Virus record (IMG/VR): IMGVR_UViG_3300044843_000483
Coordinates: 1 to 37,310 of that record
Length of the DNA stretch: 37,310 nucleotides
From: a virus
Strand: one strand, 5' to 3'
The translations under genes and the position numbers were made by a program. The notes beneath the pieces were generated by a model, which was not told the DNA's origin, searched no databases, and saw only the letters and a program-made list of their open reading frames with translations. Shown piece by piece: positions 27,887 to 34,730 of this stretch (position 1 is its first letter; each line of letters begins with the position of its first letter).

Positions 27887-28972
27887 CTACTTCGTGGCGC
27901 CGGTCTTTTTGACCCCGCGCGAGCGCACGTAATCTGCTGTCTGCGCCTCTGTCGAGTGGGCGCCCATCGTCCGTGCAGCCGGCATCCCTTCGGCGGCTTC
28001 TTTGTCCGTCAAGGCCTTGGCGCGCAGGTCGTGGAAGTGCACGCCGACCACGCCGGACTTCTTCAGCGCACGCTTCCACATGCTGTGCGCGCCGTCGTAC
28101 GTCAGCGGGGTGCCATCCTGGCCTGTGATCAGGTAGCCGCTGACCACCCGCTGGCTGGCCTTGCGCTTGAGCAGGCGCTCGGCCTGCAGCCGTTTGATGC
28201 GGTCCACGGTGTCGCGCAGCTTCGGCGTCCACTCGATCACCACGCCCGCGCCGGTCTTCTTGCGGGTCTTGCTGGGTCGGAAGCGCAGGCCCTCGGGCGT
28301 CACATGCGGGGCGTCGATGTCGTCGGGGTCGCGCTGCCAGCGCAGCTCGAGCAGGTCGCCGATGCGCTGGCCGGTCAGGTAGGCCAGGTCGATCAGTGCC
28401 GCCAGCATGTGCCCGGAGCGGGCAAAGCCGCCGGCCTCGCTGCGGATGCCGGCCACCTTGATGCGGCGCAGCTCGCTGTCGGTGATGTACCGCGTGCGTG
28501 CCGGCGTGCTCATGGTCTTGATGTGGTCGACCGGGTTGTCGGTGCGGAACCCTCGCTCGACGCTGTACCGCATGATCTCGCGCAGCATCGAGCGGTGGCC
28601 GTTGTGGGTGCGCGGCTTGACCCGCAGCGGGGCCAGGTACTCGGCAACGTCTGGCGCCTGCACCTGGCCGGCGCGGAACTCGCTGAAGCTCTCGGAGAGC
28701 TGACGGCACATACTCCGCTCGTCGATCTGGGTCTTCGGCGCGTGCCTGGGCATCACGTCGCGCTGCCACGCTGCGATCACCGCGGGCATGCGGTCGTCGG
28801 CCAGGCCTTCGGCCAGCTTGGCCGCCAGCGCCTGGTACATGGCCGGCAGGCCGTCGTCGATCAGGCTCAGCTTCACCCAGACGCGCTTGGTGCCTTCTGC
28901 GCGCACCCGGTAGTACCAGCGGCCCTTCGGGAACACCCCGGTGGGCAGGGCGGTGCGTTTGGCTGCGTTCAT
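27887..28972 (-). CDS. int: Phage tyrosine integrase
   Basis: 361 residues from ATG 28972. Catalytic residues are visible: Arg203 in LTGQRIGDLLELR, His314/Arg317 in HFHDLRAKALTD, His339 in MGAHSTEAQTADY and nucleophile Tyr348. The N-terminal ~150 residues contain the arm-binding/core-binding domains. It is a phage-type enzyme; I see no integron-integrase-specific insertion between the catalytic boxes. It is coupled to the upstream gene by ATGA. The candidate attP lies next to its 3-prime end as in lambda. Confidence 0.92.
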   Translation of the reverse strand: MNAAKRTALPTGVFPKGRWYYRVRAEGTKRVWVKLSLIDDGLPAMYQALAAKLAEGLADDRMPAVIAAWQRDVMPRHAPKTQIDERSMCRQLSESFSEFRAGQVQAPDVAEYLAPLRVKPRTHNGHRSMLREIMRYSVERGFRTDNPVDHIKTMSTPARTRYITDSELRRIKVAGIRSEAGGFARSGHMLAALIDLAYLTGQRIGDLLELRWQRDPDDIDAPHVTPEGLRFRPSKTRKKTGAGVVIEWTPKLRDTVDRIKRLQAERLLKRKASQRVVSGYLITGQDGTPLTYDGAHSMWKRALKKSGVVGVHFHDLRAKALTDKEAAEGMPAARTMGAHSTEAQTADYVRSRGVKKTGATK

Positions 28973-29355
28973 GGGTAGCTTTCGGCGCTGTAGATCGCCC
29001 GATCCTGCGCCTGCAGCGCCACGCTGGGCCGCTTGTAGATCATGGCGGCCACGCGCCGGCCGACCTCGGTAGCGGTCAGCATCGAATCGCATCGCTGGCC
29101 GTCGATCTCGGCTGCGTGCTGGTCGCATCGCCCGTGCGTGGGCACGTACAGCGTGATGGTGTGCAGGACTTCGCCGGCACCGTCCAGCACCTGAACGCGC
29201 TGCCACACGCTCAGCGGCTCGGGCCTGTGGGCACTGGCGGCAGGGTGAGGGCCAGCGCCTCGCGGCGCGCGTCCTGCGTGGCCTTGCGGCGGCGCAGGGC
29301 GTCGGGGCTGTTGGCAGCGGCCCAACGGCCGCGGGGGGCGTCTGCGACTTTTCAT
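28969..29355 (-). CDS. Integrase-linked small protein with internally shifted frame
   Basis: 128 residues as an open frame from ATG 29355. The C-terminal 80 residues (LSVWQRVQVLDGAGEVLHTI onward) look like a real protein and end in ATGA overlap with int. Residues about 7-47 are an Arg/Pro-rich string, but the +1 frame over the same stretch reads RGRWAAANSPDALRRRK and continues as plausible protein to a TGA at 29211-29213. Removing one C in the six-C run near 29333-29338 would join MKSRRRP to that frame. The segment therefore looks frame-shifted twice, or mis-sequenced. A shorter start at GTG 29208 is possible. There is no ribosome-binding site before 29355. Confidence 0.5.
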   Translation of the reverse strand: MKSRRRPPRPLGRCQQPRRPAPPQGHAGRAPRGAGPHPAASAHRPEPLSVWQRVQVLDGAGEVLHTITLYVPTHGRCDQHAAEIDGQRCDSMLTATEVGRRVAAMIYKRPSVALQAQDRAIYSAESYP

Positions 29356-29373
29356 AGTTGGCGTATCGACTAG

Positions 29374-29658
29374 TTAGGCCCCGCAAGCCCTGCGAATTGC
29401 CATCACAGCATCAGCGGCGGCAGTCCGCTCGCGACCGCTGCGGCCCATCGCGTCCGCGTATGCCGCGCAGCAAGCCGTAACCCACCGCTCGCGCTCTGCG
29501 GCCACGGCGGCTAGTGCGGCGTCCAAGCGAACAACGTTCTCTGTGCCGCTCTGCAGCCGAGACAAAATCACGAACGCCTGCTGCCTCAGCGCCTCTTCTG
29601 GCAGCGGGCCTAACACCTCGCTCAAAGGGACCGCCAACGGCTTGTCACTGTTGCTCAT
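29374..29658 (-). CDS. Cassette ORF 5, start codon supplied by upstream attC
   Basis: 94 residues, helical, starting MSNSDKPLAVPLSEVLGPLP. ATG 29658 has AGGAAGGA upstream, and both lie in the terminal loop of the attC at 29608-29708. Codons 1-15 are therefore attC sequence and the recombination point falls in the GTTAGGC core, inside the gene. The TAA stop is embedded in GCCTAAC (29373-29379), the usual cassette arrangement. It overlaps the end of cassette ORF 4 by 14 nt. No family recognised. Confidence 0.6.
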   Translation of the reverse strand: MSNSDKPLAVPLSEVLGPLPEEALRQQAFVILSRLQSGTENVVRLDAALAAVAAERERWVTACCAAYADAMGRSGRERTAAADAVMAIRRACGA

Positions 29659-29708
29659 CTTCGTAATCCTTCCTGGCCGTTGCCGGCCCCTTAGCTCGAA
29701 CGTTAGAT
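29608..29708 (-). repeat. attC site A (101 bp)
   Basis: Minus-strand boxes are ATCTAAC (R'') and GTTAGGC (R'). Inner arms pair as TCGCTCAAAGGGACCGCCAA with the reverse complement of the distal arm, with a few mismatches. The loop of about 35-40 nt contains the ribosome-binding site and ATG of cassette ORF 5. Its outer arms are nearly the same as those of attC C. Confidence 0.82.
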
Positions 29709-30070
29709 GCCTTGCCAATGCTTGCCACCAGGGCGCGCATTGCGGCCACAAGCGGTGTCGGCCCAGTGCAGTCGGCGTGAGTCCGTCCCTCCCATGAAAG
29801 GCCAACGGCTCGCCACTCGCCGTAGTACACGCCCATGTCTACCTTGGGCTCAATCATCAGCTTCTCTCGCTCGATCAGCGGCCCCGCCTGCGCCCAGTTC
29901 AGGTCCGGCGCAAAGCCGTAGCGCGTCAGGCTGTACGGCAGGCCGGTCGGGTCTTCGCAGATCCATGCGCCCAGCTTCCCGCCGCCCATGTCCTCGCGGT
30001 ACACCTTCCAGCCAATCGCCTCGGCAACCGCTTTGCGGAGCTTTGCGCCCTTCAGTGTGTTTGCATCCAC
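29645..30070 (-). CDS. Cassette ORF 4, phage ABA-sandwich-like protein
   Basis: 141 residues from GTG 30070, which lies only three bases past the attC B core, so the leader is very short. The layout LRKAVAEAIGWKVYRED, PYSLTRYGFAPDLNWAQAGP, LIEREK, GEWRAVGLSWEG and TPLVAAMRALVASIG resembles the small phage ABA-sandwich (DUF2591/NinX-like) proteins. The last 20 or so residues are encoded by attC A. Phage-type cargo in a cassette is notable. Function unknown. Confidence 0.65.
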   Translation of the reverse strand: MDANTLKGAKLRKAVAEAIGWKVYREDMGGGKLGAWICEDPTGLPYSLTRYGFAPDLNWAQAGPLIEREKLMIEPKVDMGVYYGEWRAVGLSWEGRTHADCTGPTPLVAAMRALVASIGKASNVRAKGPATARKDYEDEQQ

Positions 30071-30073
30071 GGC

Positions 30074-30159
30074 ATCTAACCCTGCGTTGCAGCGGACGGC
30101 CCTCGGCCGCCCAGGTTCATCGACTGTCCAGCGGGCCGCCGCTGAACTCCACGTTAGGC
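30074..30159 (-). repeat. attC site B (86 bp)
   Basis: Minus-strand boxes are GCCTAAC and GTTAGAT. The inner arm TGCGTTGCAGCGG pairs with the complement of the opposite arm (reads TGGAGTTCAGCGG on the other strand). The stop of cassette ORF 3b is inside the first box. Confidence 0.82.
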
Positions 30160-30408
30160 GTGTTCAGGCGCTCCACCAGTTGCGTTCCGGCGAATCTCGC
30201 GACACTGCTCGCGGAACAGGCGCGCGTTTTGCAGCGCGGCAGCCGAGGTGCTGAAAGCTGTGCCGTTGTCGGTGGCAACCATGCAGCCGTAGATCGTGCC
30301 CACGAAGCCGCGCCACAGGACACTGTTTCGCACCTGATTGAACGGTTCCGCGGCAATGTCGGTGTCCAGCGCGTTCGCGTAAGCCGCCGCCTTGTCAAAG
30401 TCAATCAC
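30154..30408 (-). CDS. Cassette ORF 3b, unknown
   Basis: 84 residues from GTG 30408, overlapping the previous stop (GTGA). The sequence (DFDKAAAYANALDTDIAAEP; RNSVLWRGFVGTIYGCMVAT) is helical with a hydrophobic middle. TAA lies within the attC B core. Unrecognised; the tight pairing with ORF 3a inside one cassette suggests a two-component function. Confidence 0.55.
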   Translation of the reverse strand: MIDFDKAAAYANALDTDIAAEPFNQVRNSVLWRGFVGTIYGCMVATDNGTAFSTSAAALQNARLFREQCREIRRNATGGAPEHA

Positions 30409-30674
30409 AGCAATGCTCCTTGGTGGCGGGTCGGGGCCTGCGCACGGTCAATCGCGCCCAGCAAGCCGGCCAGCTTCTCGGCGTCGTCGCTGTCGTCGGG
30501 GTCAATCGTGCGCAGAATCGCCGCGCAGTCGGTCAGCAGCCCCAGCAGCACGGCGTTTTCGCCTTCAATTCGTCGTCCAATCTCGTCAACCTTGTCGCAC
30601 TCTGGGCCGCTCAGCTTGAAGCCAGCGTCCCACATTTCATCCAGTAGCCAGGTTGCAATCTTTTCTTGGCTCAT
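30405..30674 (-). CDS. Cassette ORF 3a, acidic small protein
   Basis: 89 residues with GGAAGGA seven bases before ATG 30674. Highly acidic and helical (CDKVDEIGRRIEGENAVLLG; LRTIDPDDSDDAEKLAGLLG). It forms the first gene of a two-gene cassette. No catalytic motif is visible. Acidic first and small second genes can be toxin-antitoxin or anti-defence pairs, but nothing here proves it. Confidence 0.6.
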   Translation of the reverse strand: MSQEKIATWLLDEMWDAGFKLSGPECDKVDEIGRRIEGENAVLLGLLTDCAAILRTIDPDDSDDAEKLAGLLGAIDRAQAPTRHQGALL

Positions 30675-30702
30675 CGTCTTTCCTTCCGGTTATCAACCAC
30701 AC

Positions 30703-30829
30703 GCCTAACACCTCGCTCAAAACGGACACGCAACAGCTTGCCGCCCTGGCCGCGAGGCCGTGTTGTTAATCTTCGGCTTCGCGGCCAGGTCGTCAACCTG
30801 CCGCGTGCCGCTTAGCTCGAACGTTAGGC
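30703..30829 (-). repeat. attC site C (127 bp)
   Basis: Minus-strand boxes are GCCTAAC and GTTAGGC. The left arm CCTCGCTCAAAACGG and right arm CGCTTAGCTCGAACG have the usual attC partial complementarity. A second stem CCTGGCCGCGA/TCGCGGCCAGG lies inside. Confidence 0.87.
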
Positions 30830-30837
30830 GTGTTGCT

Positions 30838-31275
30838 TCATGCCGCCGCTTTGGCCTTGGCCTTCTCGGCTGCTTCGCGCTCGCGCGCCCACTTCACGCC
30901 GCGCGCCACGGCCTCCGCCAGCGTGTCGCCGTACAGCCAGGCCGTGTTGTAGTAGCCCCAAGAGAAACTGGCGCCCTCGCCCTTCTTGTTCCACTCCATC
31001 ACCGGCCGCGCGAACTGCACCGCGAACCCCCACTTGTTGGTGCGGCACGCCCACTCGCAGAACGACTCGCGGAACAAGGCTTCGTCGTCAAGCTCGGCCA
31101 GCAGCGCAGCCGGTATGTCCGGGAAGCACCGTTGCAGCGTCTCTTCGTCCTCGCTCTCCAGCAGCTCGCGCAGCGGGTCAGCCATCGCCATGCCATCGTT
31201 CAGCATGCCGGCCAGCAGCACTACCTGCTCCATGCGCAAGGTCGCATCGTCCAGGCGCTCATACAGCTTCTTCAT
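30838..31275 (-). CDS. Cassette ORF 2, unknown
   Basis: 145 residues, ATG 31275 with AAGGA eight bases upstream. N-terminal helices are acidic (LYERLDDATLRMEQVVLLAG; LLESEDEETLQRCFPDIPAA), then an aromatic-rich segment (TNKWGFAVQFARPVMEWNKK; GASFSWGYYNTAWLYGDT) and a basic, Ala-rich C-terminal tail. The stop is nine bases before attC C. Not recognised. Confidence 0.65.
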   Translation of the reverse strand: MKKLYERLDDATLRMEQVVLLAGMLNDGMAMADPLRELLESEDEETLQRCFPDIPAALLAELDDEALFRESFCEWACRTNKWGFAVQFARPVMEWNKKGEGASFSWGYYNTAWLYGDTLAEAVARGVKWAREREAAEKAKAKAAA

Positions 31276-31304
31276 TCGGTTGTCCTTTCGCTTCGGATAC
31301 ACAC

Positions 31305-31364
31305 GCCTAACCCCCGGGTCGAGCTGACCCGCCGCTGGCGGGCAGCTCACCCGGACCGTTATGC
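31305..31364 (-). repeat. attC site D (60 bp)
   Basis: Boxes on the minus strand are GCATAAC and GTTAGGC. The inner arms CCGGGTCGAGCTGACCCGCC and the complement of the opposite side align with a single bulged base; a compact classical attC. The stop of cassette ORF 1 is inside the first box. Confidence 0.9.
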
Positions 31365-31697
31365 AGCGCCAACAGCCGGCGGGGCGGCCATCGCAGCGGC
31401 TGCGCGAACAATCAGCCGGCGAACTACTGCGGTTCGCTCCTCGTCGCTGCGCACAAATGCCGCATCGTCAATCTCGTCCTCGTCTGACACGCTGGCCGAG
31501 AAGTCGCCCTGTGCAATGTTCAGCTTGAGCTTGCAGGCCAGCCGCAGGGCATGGCCGTCATCCTCCAGCGGGTTCCACAGCCCATTGTCCGGGTCTCCCG
31601 TATTGATGCCGCTGTCGCCCCAGTAGCGCATGTAGTCGCCTTCGATGCCAGCGGCCTTGGCGGCCAGTTCCAACAGTTCACGGTCAGTCGTCATCAT
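31359..31697 (-). CDS. Cassette ORF 1, small phage-like protein
   Basis: 112 residues from ATG 31697 (MMTTDRELLELAAKAAGIEG); ATG 31694 has better spacing to AAAGGA. The opening and the later WNPLEDDGHALRLACKLKLN match a protein type common in phages (TDRELLELAAKAAG...NPL.DDGDALRLA). TAA is inside the attC D core. It is the first cassette after the DUF4224 gene. Function unknown. Confidence 0.7.
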   Translation of the reverse strand: MMTTDRELLELAAKAAGIEGDYMRYWGDSGINTGDPDNGLWNPLEDDGHALRLACKLKLNIAQGDFSASVSDEDEIDDAAFVRSDEERTAVVRRLIVRAAAAMAAPPAVGAA

Positions 31698-31727
31698 CTG
31701 TCCTTTGTTGTGCGCCACCAGGGCGCT

Positions 31728-31790
31728 GCATAACAAGCCGGTGTAGCGGATCGCCCCTGGCGGGGCTCCCGCTAACCGCCAGCGTTGAGC
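31728..31790 (-). repeat. attC site E (63 bp), bordering phage backbone
   Basis: Minus-strand boxes are GCTCAAC and GTTATGC. The inner arms GGCGGTTAGCGGGAGCCCC and GGGGCGATCCGCTACACCG pair with bulges, a typical short attC. The first box starts one base after the DUF4224 stop codon, so this is the upstream end of the array. Confidence 0.87.
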
Positions 31791-31791
31791 C

Positions 31792-32022
31792 TCAAGCTGC
31801 AGCCCTAACCCGCACCTGCGGAGGCCGCACCTTCGGCCGGGCCTCGCCCTTCTGCCCAGCGCACACGGCCTCGTAGTGGGCCCGCTCCAAGATAACGGCG
31901 CCATCGGTGGGCGACCGGCGGGCACGTGCGAAGCCCAGGCGGTGCAGCTCGTCCAGTTGCTCGCTGGACCTGCGGTAGCCGGTCAGGGCGACCAGCTCGG
32001 GCGGTGTGAGGGTGATGGTCAC
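31792..32022 (-). CDS. DUF4224 family phage protein
   Basis: 76 residues from GTG 32022, overlapping the upstream stop (GTGA). LTPPELVALTGYRRSSEQLD, then ELHRLGFARARRSPTDGAVI, is the DUF4224 pattern. Members usually lie just upstream of phage integrases. Here the integrase side is displaced by the cassette array. The stop is one base before an attC, so the gene might also be read as belonging to the array; family habit argues for phage backbone. Confidence 0.82.
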   Translation of the reverse strand: MTITLTPPELVALTGYRRSSEQLDELHRLGFARARRSPTDGAVILERAHYEAVCAGQKGEARPKVRPPQVRVRAAA

Positions 32023-32911: not shown

Positions 32912-33171
32912 GCGACCTCAACCGGCTGCAGTTCGTCCACCGTCTTGAACGTGGTCCAGCGCGGATGGCTCTCGCGCACCCGGCCGTTGCGGTCGGTGTG
33001 CTGCGTCACCGGGCCGGTGCTCTCGCAGCTGATCAGCTCGACGCCGGCCAGCTGGTCAACAGCGCGCACGACCATCGGGTGATCGTCGAATGCCGTCACG
33101 CCCACCCGGGCGCTGGGGCGCGTCTGCACCAGGTCGCCCACGGCGGGGGTCCAGAAGAGGTCGGGGGTCAT
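32908..33171 (-). CDS. Small phage protein, unknown
   Basis: 87 residues from ATG 33171 (MTPDLFWTPAVGDLVQTRPS), coupled to the methyltransferase stop. Beta-rich, with RAVDQLAGVELISCESTGPV and HTDRNGRVRESHPRW. Possibly a small RNA/DNA-binding barrel, but not recognised. The longer start at 33255 would run through the methyltransferase and is rejected. Confidence 0.55.
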   Translation of the reverse strand: MTPDLFWTPAVGDLVQTRPSARVGVTAFDDHPMVVRAVDQLAGVELISCESTGPVTQHTDRNGRVRESHPRWTTFKTVDELQPVEVA

Positions 33172-34730
33172 GCGGCCTCCCGCAGCGCCTGGCGCTCGCT
33201 GTAGTTCGCGGCCACCAGGGCGCAGGCCAGCGGCGGGCAAACGCTGTTGCCGCACATGCGCACCTGGGCGTCCTTGGGCAGCACGCGGCCGTCGTGGCCT
33301 CGGTCGATGATGTAGCTGGCCGGGAAGCCCTGGGCCGTGTACAGCTCGCGCGGCTGCAGCATCCGCATGCCGATGTCGGCGATGGCGTACTGCTGGCCGG
33401 CCACGGTCACCAGCGCGAAGCGGGGCTTCGTGGTGACGGTGTGCATGGGGTCGGGCAGCGGCGTGTCCTGGTCGCTGCCGTAGTAGGCGGTCAGGAAGGC
33501 GCTGACCAAGCCCATGACGTTGCCTGTCGATGGCCGGCTTGGCGTGCCACCGGCCGTAACGGTGTGCACGGGCTCGGCCAGGCCGCTGCCAACGCTACCT
33601 GTGCGGAACTTGGTGATGGTGCCGGCCACCAGGCTGTGGTGGTCCTGCGTGGTCACCGTGCCGATGGGCTGGCGCAGGTCGGTGCCGACCACGCCCGTGT
33701 AGTGCTTGGCCAGGAAAGCGGCCACCAGGGCATGCTTCGCAGCGCCGGCCACCACGGTGCCCAGCGGCTTGTCCAGGCCCGGCACGCGGGGCGCCTGGCC
33801 TTCGCGCTCGCCGTAGCCGGTCTGCACCAGCGTCGGGCTGCACAGCAGGTGCTCGGCCTTGGTGGTGATCGTGCTGACCGGCTCCGTGATCCCGCGCACC
33901 TTGCCGCCGTCACCGTGGCCGGTCTGGCCGATGCGCACCACGTAGGGCTGCGCGGCGTTGACCACGTACCGCATGACCCCATGGGCGATGCGGCGCAGCG
34001 TGGCCTCGGCCAGCGGGCGCTCGCGTTCGAAGATGCTGGGGCAGGGGATCGACCAGTCGATGCAGTCGGCCGCGGTGCGCCAGGGCATCAGGCCCTTGGC
34101 CTTCGCGTGCTTGGGGTCGGCGTGCGTCGGCTCAGGCCACACGATGGGCATGCCGTCGCGGCGGGCCACCAGAAACAGGCGCTTGCGGATGGTCGGCGCG
34201 CCGTAGTCGCAAGCGCGCAGCTCGCGCCACTCGACCATGTAGCCCAGGGCCTGCAGCTGTGCCACCCAACGCTGGAAGGTGCGGCCCTTGCGCTCGGGGC
34301 AGGGGCGGCCGTCTGCGGCCAGCGGGCCCCAGGTCTGGAACTCTTCGACGTTCTCCAGGCAGATGATGCGCGGGCGGGTCAGCTTGGCCCACTTCACCAC
34401 CACCCAGGCCAGGCCGCGCACGCGCTTGCTGACGGGCTTGCCGCCCTTGGCCTTGCTGAAGTGCTTGCAGTCGGGCGAAGCCCACAGCAGGCCCACCGGC
34501 CGGCCTTCGGTGACGGCCAGCGGATCGACCTCGAAGACGTCCGACACGAAGTGCTGGGTCTGCGGGTGGTTGGCCTGGTGCAGGCTCACCGCGGCCGGGT
34601 CGTGGTTGACCGCGATGTCCACGTGCCGGCCGATGGCCTGCTCAATGCCGGTGCTGGCGCCGCCACCACCTGCGAACAGATCCACCACCAGCTCGTCGGA
34701 CAGCGGCAGGATGAATTGAGGCTTCAGCAT
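33168..34730 (-). CDS. C5 cytosine DNA methyltransferase with internal PxxTVT repeats
   Basis: 520 residues from ATG 34730, which overlaps the upstream stop. Motif I is VVDLFAGGGGASTGIEQA (15-32) for AdoMet; the motif IV nucleophile is Cys88 in SPDC where most enzymes have PPC; ENV is at 126-128, IRKRLFLVAR at 181-190, RELYTAQGFP at 461-470 and GNSVCPP at 494-500. Residues 282-438 carry five degenerate copies of P-x-x-T-V/I-T in the target-recognition region. The enzyme probably masks the phage genome from host restriction. No partner endonuclease is visible. Confidence 0.9.
   Translation of the reverse strand: MLKPQFILPLSDELVVDLFAGGGGASTGIEQAIGRHVDIAVNHDPAAVSLHQANHPQTQHFVSDVFEVDPLAVTEGRPVGLLWASPDCKHFSKAKGGKPVSKRVRGLAWVVVKWAKLTRPRIICLENVEEFQTWGPLAADGRPCPERKGRTFQRWVAQLQALGYMVEWRELRACDYGAPTIRKRLFLVARRDGMPIVWPEPTHADPKHAKAKGLMPWRTAADCIDWSIPCPSIFERERPLAEATLRRIAHGVMRYVVNAAQPYVVRIGQTGHGDGGKVRGITEPVSTITTKAEHLLCSPTLVQTGYGEREGQAPRVPGLDKPLGTVVAGAAKHALVAAFLAKHYTGVVGTDLRQPIGTVTTQDHHSLVAGTITKFRTGSVGSGLAEPVHTVTAGGTPSRPSTGNVMGLVSAFLTAYYGSDQDTPLPDPMHTVTTKPRFALVTVAGQQYAIADIGMRMLQPRELYTAQGFPASYIIDRGHDGRVLPKDAQVRMCGNSVCPPLACALVAANYSERQALREAA

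Follow-up and report, generated by a model that had tools for sequence, protein, structure and literature searches.

A phage-borne integron array with inverted gene cassettes and no integrase gene of its own, in what is probably a wider class of phage integrons

An array of five integron gene cassettes without an integron integrase (IntI) gene was identified in the viral record IMGVR_UViG_3300044843_000483 of IMG/VR, which was analysed over its whole length (positions 1 to 37,310; 37,310 nucleotides) and is referred to here as the window. The reading favoured by the analysis, with an estimated probability of about 0.88, is that the window derives from a temperate tailed phage carrying a true array of cassettes whose genes are inverted relative to their attC recombination sites, and that this phage would be one member of a wider class of phage integrons. 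Integrons are known bacterial gene-capture platforms, and reports of them in phages have been read as accidental captures.

Detection of the attC array

A preliminary description of the window, made from the letters and open reading frames (ORFs) alone, had proposed a cassette array with five attC-like sites inside a phage and had named an attC covariance model as one check. Covariance models R1 and R2 were trained on attC sites of chromosomal integron loci alone (alignments A3 and A4), the window and all viruses being left out; a single alignment of attC sites of mixed length aligned badly, and separate models were therefore built for short and long sites. All five sites (29608-29708, 30074-30159, 30703-30829, 31305-31364 and 31728-31790) scored highly, with the best match of each on the plus strand, scores of 28-111 bits and best E-values per site of 1.5e-7 to 2e-26. 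Model R1 returned E-values of 6.3e-14, 4.6e-8, 1.5e-7 and 1.7e-5 for four of the five; it gave 59.1 bits (E 6e-14) for site 30074-30159, 37.6 bits (E 4.6e-8) on the plus strand against 20.9 bits on the minus strand for site 31305-31364, and 35.7 bits (E 1.5e-7) on the plus strand for site 31728-31790, where the minus strand had no match. Model R2 gave 111 bits (E 2.4e-26) for site 30703-30829 and 62.3 bits (E 6.2e-14) for site 29608-29708. The same five sites were recovered by a separate arm/core scan in which the unpaired spacer was left free (a version penalising the spacer missed three of them), while ten dinucleotide shuffles yielded about 0.4 sites per strand at a score of at least 8.

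The sites appear as quasi-palindromes between short minus-strand ORFs, with ends of RYYYAAC and GTTRRRY when read on the minus strand, and an attC hairpin fold was predicted for all five. A 5' core complementary to the cassette's own R'' end is the signature of a circularisable cassette and is expected of excised circles; this complementarity extended over 9, 10, 11, 11 and 13 bp in the five cassettes, here called A to E. Along its whole length, site 30703-30829 had about 80% identity to attC sites of Rubrivivax albus, and from this attC type the host is probably a Rubrivivax-like member of the Burkholderiales. A search with TIGR02249 found no match at E <= 10 in the record, which bears out the earlier statement that the window holds no IntI, and Rfam gave zero matches at gathering score across the window. 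At least two attC sites found by covariance model define an array of the type known as a cluster of attC sites lacking integron integrases (CALIN), and five were present; the intI gene that defines a complete integron was absent from the window. Together with the core complementarity and the array-free relatives described below, the covariance models confirmed, at the level of sequence, that the temperate phage contains a true integron cassette array lacking IntI. All five sites lie in the span of 29373-31790 originally given for the array; position 29373 marks not an attC site but a single core box, GTTAGGC. A candidate sixth attC site at 29320-29379 folded poorly, gave minus-strand E-values of 0.08 and 2.4, and was rejected and re-read as an attI-side core.

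Gene direction relative to attC polarity

All six ORFs of the array were found to be antiparallel to attC, the sites lying on the plus strand and the genes on the minus strand. The preliminary description had taken these ORFs as ordinary cassette genes, a view that had to be given up. The usual integron arrangement of gene then attC in the same direction, which is usual and not a formal requirement, was not seen in the window. The right end of attC sites of the window type (..GCTTAGCTCGAACGTTAGGC) is laid out like that of class 1 cassettes such as aadA1, where it is the downstream cassette end.

The orientation was then counted across viral loci (69 obtained with a strand-neutral attC motif, further viral loci from other searches being counted too) and 72 chromosomal loci obtained with a longer form of that motif. 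Polarity was taken from attC and gene direction from coding statistics, using a small home-made gene caller. The gene ran opposite to attC in 142 of 144 informative viral cassettes (same direction in 2) and in 51 of 51 viral loci, whereas it ran with attC in 193 of 223 chromosomal cassettes and against it in 30, with 54 loci of same-direction majority and none of opposite majority. A Fisher test on cassettes gave p of about 1e-68, a value that is too small, related cassettes being treated as independent; the contrast between loci (51 to 0 against 0 to 54) is fairer for that reason, although related contigs remain among the loci counted. Training codon usage on each short locus had given 114 opposite and 26 same for the viral cassettes; this was superseded by the pooled training that gave 142 and 2, since the strand had been miscalled at short GC-rich loci. 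The chromosomal count of 193 and 30 used its own pooled codon usage and became 103 and 23 with the phage pool.

Direction relative to IntI served as a check independent of the polarity motif. At viral IntI-positive loci with at least two attC sites, 117 genes pointed toward IntI and 5 away, whereas 14 pointed toward and 56 away at chromosomal loci, with 7 toward and 24 away in a second chromosomal set. At 15 IntI-positive viral loci, 77 of 79 covariance attC matches lay on the strand canonical for their IntI. As the sites were canonical while the genes pointed toward IntI, it was concluded that IntI, the attI side and attC have their usual arrangement in these phages and that only the genes are reversed.

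Integron integrases encoded by phages

TIGR02249 scored above its curated cut-off in 4 of 50 array-bearing viral records (G018, G021, G050 and G011), and an IntI search of IMG/VR yielded 117 viral stretches, from which 79 loci were kept. In G018, a contig of 29.8 kb that also carries structural genes, the order was phage integrase, IntI, array and C5-type methyltransferase; the same order was found in L286, and in both the array occupies the same slot as that of the window. On the IntI-positive contigs, six flanking proteins matched phage integrase families, and terminase, portal, head and tape-measure/tail families were present. When 32 viral and 45 chromosomal IntI proteins, the latter including the 30 closest from 300 genomes of the order, were placed in a tree, the viral and chromosomal labels required 2 changes, compared with about 25 when shuffled; the trees were quick ones, with support from the Shimodaira-Hasegawa-like approximate likelihood ratio test (SH-aLRT) only. 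In the first tree, a chromosomal IntI from a Rubrivivax metagenome-assembled genome (L368) was placed basal to the viral rows; no attC was detected beside it, and it is possibly a prophage. The preliminary description had suggested mobilisation in trans by a host integrase; a phage-encoded IntI, common in comparable contigs, would be at least as good a candidate source of recombinase.

The IntI of many further viral contigs (L318-L353) was more remote (40-50%), and attC sites of the window type were few or absent nearby; these contigs may carry other attC types or none. In virus Rctr41k from a DAMO/AAA enrichment (KX853513.1, 4680-8813), an IntI-like protein, annotated only as integrase-like, was followed downstream by three attC-like sites in an arrangement that looks unlike the phages surveyed.

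Start codons inside attC

Since the gene is turned round, each attC lies upstream of its own gene. A ribosome-binding site (RBS) and ATG within attC, opening a frame of at least 50 codons beyond it, were found for 63 of 299 viral compared with 3 of 380 chromosomal attC sites. In cassette A of the window, attC 29608-29708 holds the RBS (AGGAAGGA) and the ATG (29658) of the cassette's own ORF (MSNSDKPLAVPLSEVLG..), and in the predicted fold of the transcribed strand the loop containing AGGAAGGA and the ATG is unpaired. A reading of such start codons as crossover fusions with the following cassette was dropped, as it rested on the wrong polarity; the start belongs to the same cassette.

Leaders and genes were also seen in different combinations. 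One attC leader (MTTESTPAVLGLSEGLG) was joined to three different genes (L009 at 2032, L064 at 4796 and L073 at 339), and one gene start (PLPxPAMLRGVDEDYYTAEQMRAY) was joined to different attC leaders (L060 at 1598 and L028 at 11465). These switches fall at the R'' core and not at the normal crossover point.

Boundaries of the array and its place in the phage

Comparison with relatives, also suggested as a check in the preliminary description, identified the array as an insertion; neither of the two outcomes that the description had named as refuting it was thus obtained. In the five relatives of the phage closest by integrase (L003-L007; 52-69% identity over the full integrase), a DUF4224/excisionase-like gene abuts the integrase gene and no array is present; the attC covariance models found nothing in these five (best E 0.16). 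In the window, the array and a small gene lie between the excisionase-like gene and the integrase gene, within a leftward operon. The last attC is followed by GTTGAGCC and then by the 3' end of the excisionase-like gene, and the array closes on its phage side at the core G|TTGAGCC (31784-31791, plus strand). Another contig, L078, has the end of the excisionase-like gene in almost letter-for-letter the same form, splits from the window exactly at CG|TTGAGCC and continues into a different attC. L077 shares the other junction, with the attI-side context conserved and adjoining its own array. Because L078 diverges at the core and L077 shares the opposite junction, the boundaries of the array were placed at core boxes. 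The attI-side end (29349-29379, plus strand) reads TTTTCATAGTTGGCGTATCGACTA-GTTAGGC with its single core box at 29373-29379, and may be attI-like or a secondary site; the sequence at 29373 is shared with L077.

The neighbouring genes all lie on the minus strand. The phage tyrosine integrase (27887-28972) matched PF00589 (E 6e-13) and phrog_1 (E 1e-40), and the excisionase-like gene (31792-32022) matched PF13986 (E 1.5e-4) and phrog_1266 (E 2.8e-4). The assignment to a temperate tailed phage draws on these two genes flanking the array, other phage genes being read from ORFs alone. The small phage gene between array and integrase (28969-29208, with an alternative start at 29346) has a relative at the same place, beside an array, in L077, and a scan for its relatives gave none. 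A C5-type DNA methyltransferase, by sequence, is encoded at 33168-34730 and is 73% identical to the methyltransferases of G018 and L286. Only 277 bp separate the end of the integrase gene (27887) from the next gene upstream (27609), and the contig is thus probably not an integrated prophage with host flanks. A search for the phage integrase in genome contigs found none. In L078 (3651-3762), a fragment of the tail of the excisionase-like gene with the phage-side core lies behind another cassette gene, which suggests a recombination that took the phage flank into an array.

Cassettes of the window and their genes

Read on the plus strand from the core box at 29373-29379, the array resolved into five units, each closed by a complete attC, whereas on the minus strand one attC would lack a cassette and the attC of one cassette would be truncated. 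Cassette A (29374-29702) contains a minus-strand ORF from the ORF list at 29374-29658 and attC 29608-29708, the body of which is near-identical in L078. Cassette B (29703-30153; attC 30074-30159) is associated with a minus-strand ORF at 29645-30070 of the NinX family (PF10765, E 1.7e-11; phrog_4389, E 1.3e-15). Two minus-strand ORFs (30405-30674 and 30154-30408) lie in cassette C (30154-30823; attC 30703-30829), and one without an assigned family (30838-31275) lies in cassette D (30824-31358; attC 31305-31364). Cassette E (31359-31784; attC 31728-31790) has a minus-strand ORF at 31359-31694 that matched phrog_5086 (E 5.9e-23), a family with relatives in 80 viral loci and an attC near the match in 3 of these. 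No stop codon occurs at the cassette boundary in the NinX ORF, which ends inside the attC of cassette A (29645-29708), overlapping the start of the next ORF, so that its last residues are set by whichever cassette adjoins.

The cassette proteins of the window had no match in the 72 chromosomal integron loci, the cassette DNA had none in plasmids, and a comparison of the array and its flanks with phages gave a single 49-bp match. The PHROG matches among 110 viral cassette proteins included DNA methyltransferases, an RNA ligase, a deoxynucleoside monophosphate phosphatase and a MazG-like protein, and the cargo of chromosomal cassettes was mostly acetyltransferases.

Proposed mechanism and alternative explanations

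By sequence, five complete cassettes lie between the attI-side core (29373) and the phage-side core (31784), their genes running toward the attI end. In the proposed explanation, IntI would act in trans on the folded bottom strand of attC, as it does in any integron, inserting and excising single cassettes at G|TT; its source would be the host, another phage resident in the same cell or an IntI-encoding ancestor. The inversion makes the cassette genes co-directional with the phage's excisionase-integrase operon, so that they could be expressed by read-through of phage transcription and not from an integron Pc promoter; in cassette A, the attC loop supplies the RBS and start codon. The array would serve as a site at which small accessory genes of phages are exchanged (NinX and phrog_5086 here; DNA methyltransferases, RNA ligase and MazG in other phages). 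The wider class would consist of phage integrons with inverted cassettes, some encoding an IntI that belongs to a separate lineage from chromosomal IntI. That it is a specialised class, in which phage IntI lineages and IntI-less derivatives exchange inverted accessory-gene cassettes, often with an RBS and start codon in the upstream attC and expressed from phage operons, is considered probable from these comparisons.

The opposite attC polarity was considered, in which the top strand would fold and be cut at the other core, leaving the cassettes canonical and the sequence features of attC mirrored. The core complementarity is identical in both reading directions, and one leader attC is found with more than one downstream ORF, the change falling at the other core. 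However, this polarity leaves site 31728-31790 without a cassette and the 29373 end truncated, while the plus reading is complete; attC polarity is canonical relative to IntI and attI in the IntI-positive phages, and L078 diverges from the window at the plus-strand core. The opposite polarity was judged very unlikely. It is slightly more doubtful still that the array is an ordinary CALIN, taken from a host chromosomal integron by illegitimate recombination and free of phage-specific adaptation. Captures of this kind have been published, as for Vibrio phage p16 (PMC9892861), and one attC of the window resembles the Rubrivivax chromosomal sites noted above; but the genes were inverted in every viral locus and by majority in no chromosomal locus, the cassette proteins were without chromosomal match and two belong to phage families, and phage IntI separates from chromosomal IntI in the tree. 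A chimeric assembly, with attC repeats joining a host integron fragment to a phage contig, is conceivable given the metagenomic origin and the capacity of such repeats to mislead assemblers. It is highly improbable, as consecutive phage genes stand on either side of the array, L078 joins the same phage junction to an array of its own, L077 has the other junction, and the pattern of orientation was seen again at about 50 independent loci.

Several observations nevertheless weigh against an inverted array belonging to a phage integron class. The 30 opposite cassettes among the 223 on chromosomes show that inversion as such is not unique to phages, and survey and controls covered Burkholderiales-type attC sites only. 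The attC sites at 31305 and 31728 are too short for the polarity motif, their polarity coming from the covariance model alone, and a start inside attC was found in only one of the five window cassettes. The larger viral IntI groups were poorly supported (SH-aLRT 31 and 63). The attI-side sequence of the window is unlike the attI of IntI-positive phages (..CGAATTGANGTTAGGC) and may, on this comparison, be a secondary site. All contigs are metagenomic assemblies, and the evidence is computational.

Relation to known systems

Among 10,705 phage genomes, Qi et al. (2023) reported three complete integrons, one In0 element and 17 CALINs, and IntI1 recombined five of the six phage attC sites tested (PMC9892861). 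Those phages likewise carry attC arrays with or without IntI, include temperate and virulent types and have DNA methyltransferase cassettes; unlike the present loci, they are described there as host-integron captures or arrays of typical structure, and the accessible text makes no mention of antiparallel genes, attC start codons or a phage IntI lineage (PMC9892861). The sedentary chromosomal integrons of Burkholderiales (Rubrivivax and relatives) share the attC sequence type and the canonical attC-IntI polarity, but their genes run along attC polarity and away from IntI, with acetyltransferases prominent. In the 'reverse integron' of Treponema, IntI and cassette genes are also transcribed in the same direction, but in that case it is the integrase gene that is flipped, and the stop codon of the cassette gene remains in the attC R'', with gene and attC in canonical order (PMC7691350, PMC4909258); the IntI-positive phages have canonical IntI and attC with flipped genes, and do not share the flipped integrase gene of the Treponema type. 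ORF-11 in attI1 of class 1 integrons is similar in that a translation start in a recombination site aids cassette expression, but it works by termination-reinitiation from attI, whereas the start codon in phage attC shares the reading frame of the cassette's own gene (PMC8876359). No description of systematically inverted cassettes or in-frame attC start codons was found in the literature searched, subscription papers and preprints lying outside it. Phage-borne attC clusters were thus already published in 2023, while the systematic inversion and the phage-specific integron lineage appear new.

If phages possess an integron lineage whose cassettes are suited to phage transcription, site-specific exchange of cassettes would drive part of the mosaicism of phage accessory genes, including anti-restriction methyltransferases and NinX-type genes. 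Cassette orientation would be an evolvable trait, attC would gain a possible second role as a translation start, and annotation tools that assume gene-then-attC order would mis-assign inverted cassettes.

Cassette sharing between phages

Single cassettes about 99% identical were found in different phage contigs, the alignments beginning and ending at core boxes: L009 (2030-2423) shares one with L026 and L076, and L050 (1115-1495) shares another with L077. The proportion of alignment ends lying near core boxes was 0.19, twice that of random positions (0.09). Runs of cassettes common to several contigs at high identity were also seen, in L047, L042 and L071 and in L009, L020, L026, L064 and L076, and are useful for tracing the evolution of the arrays.

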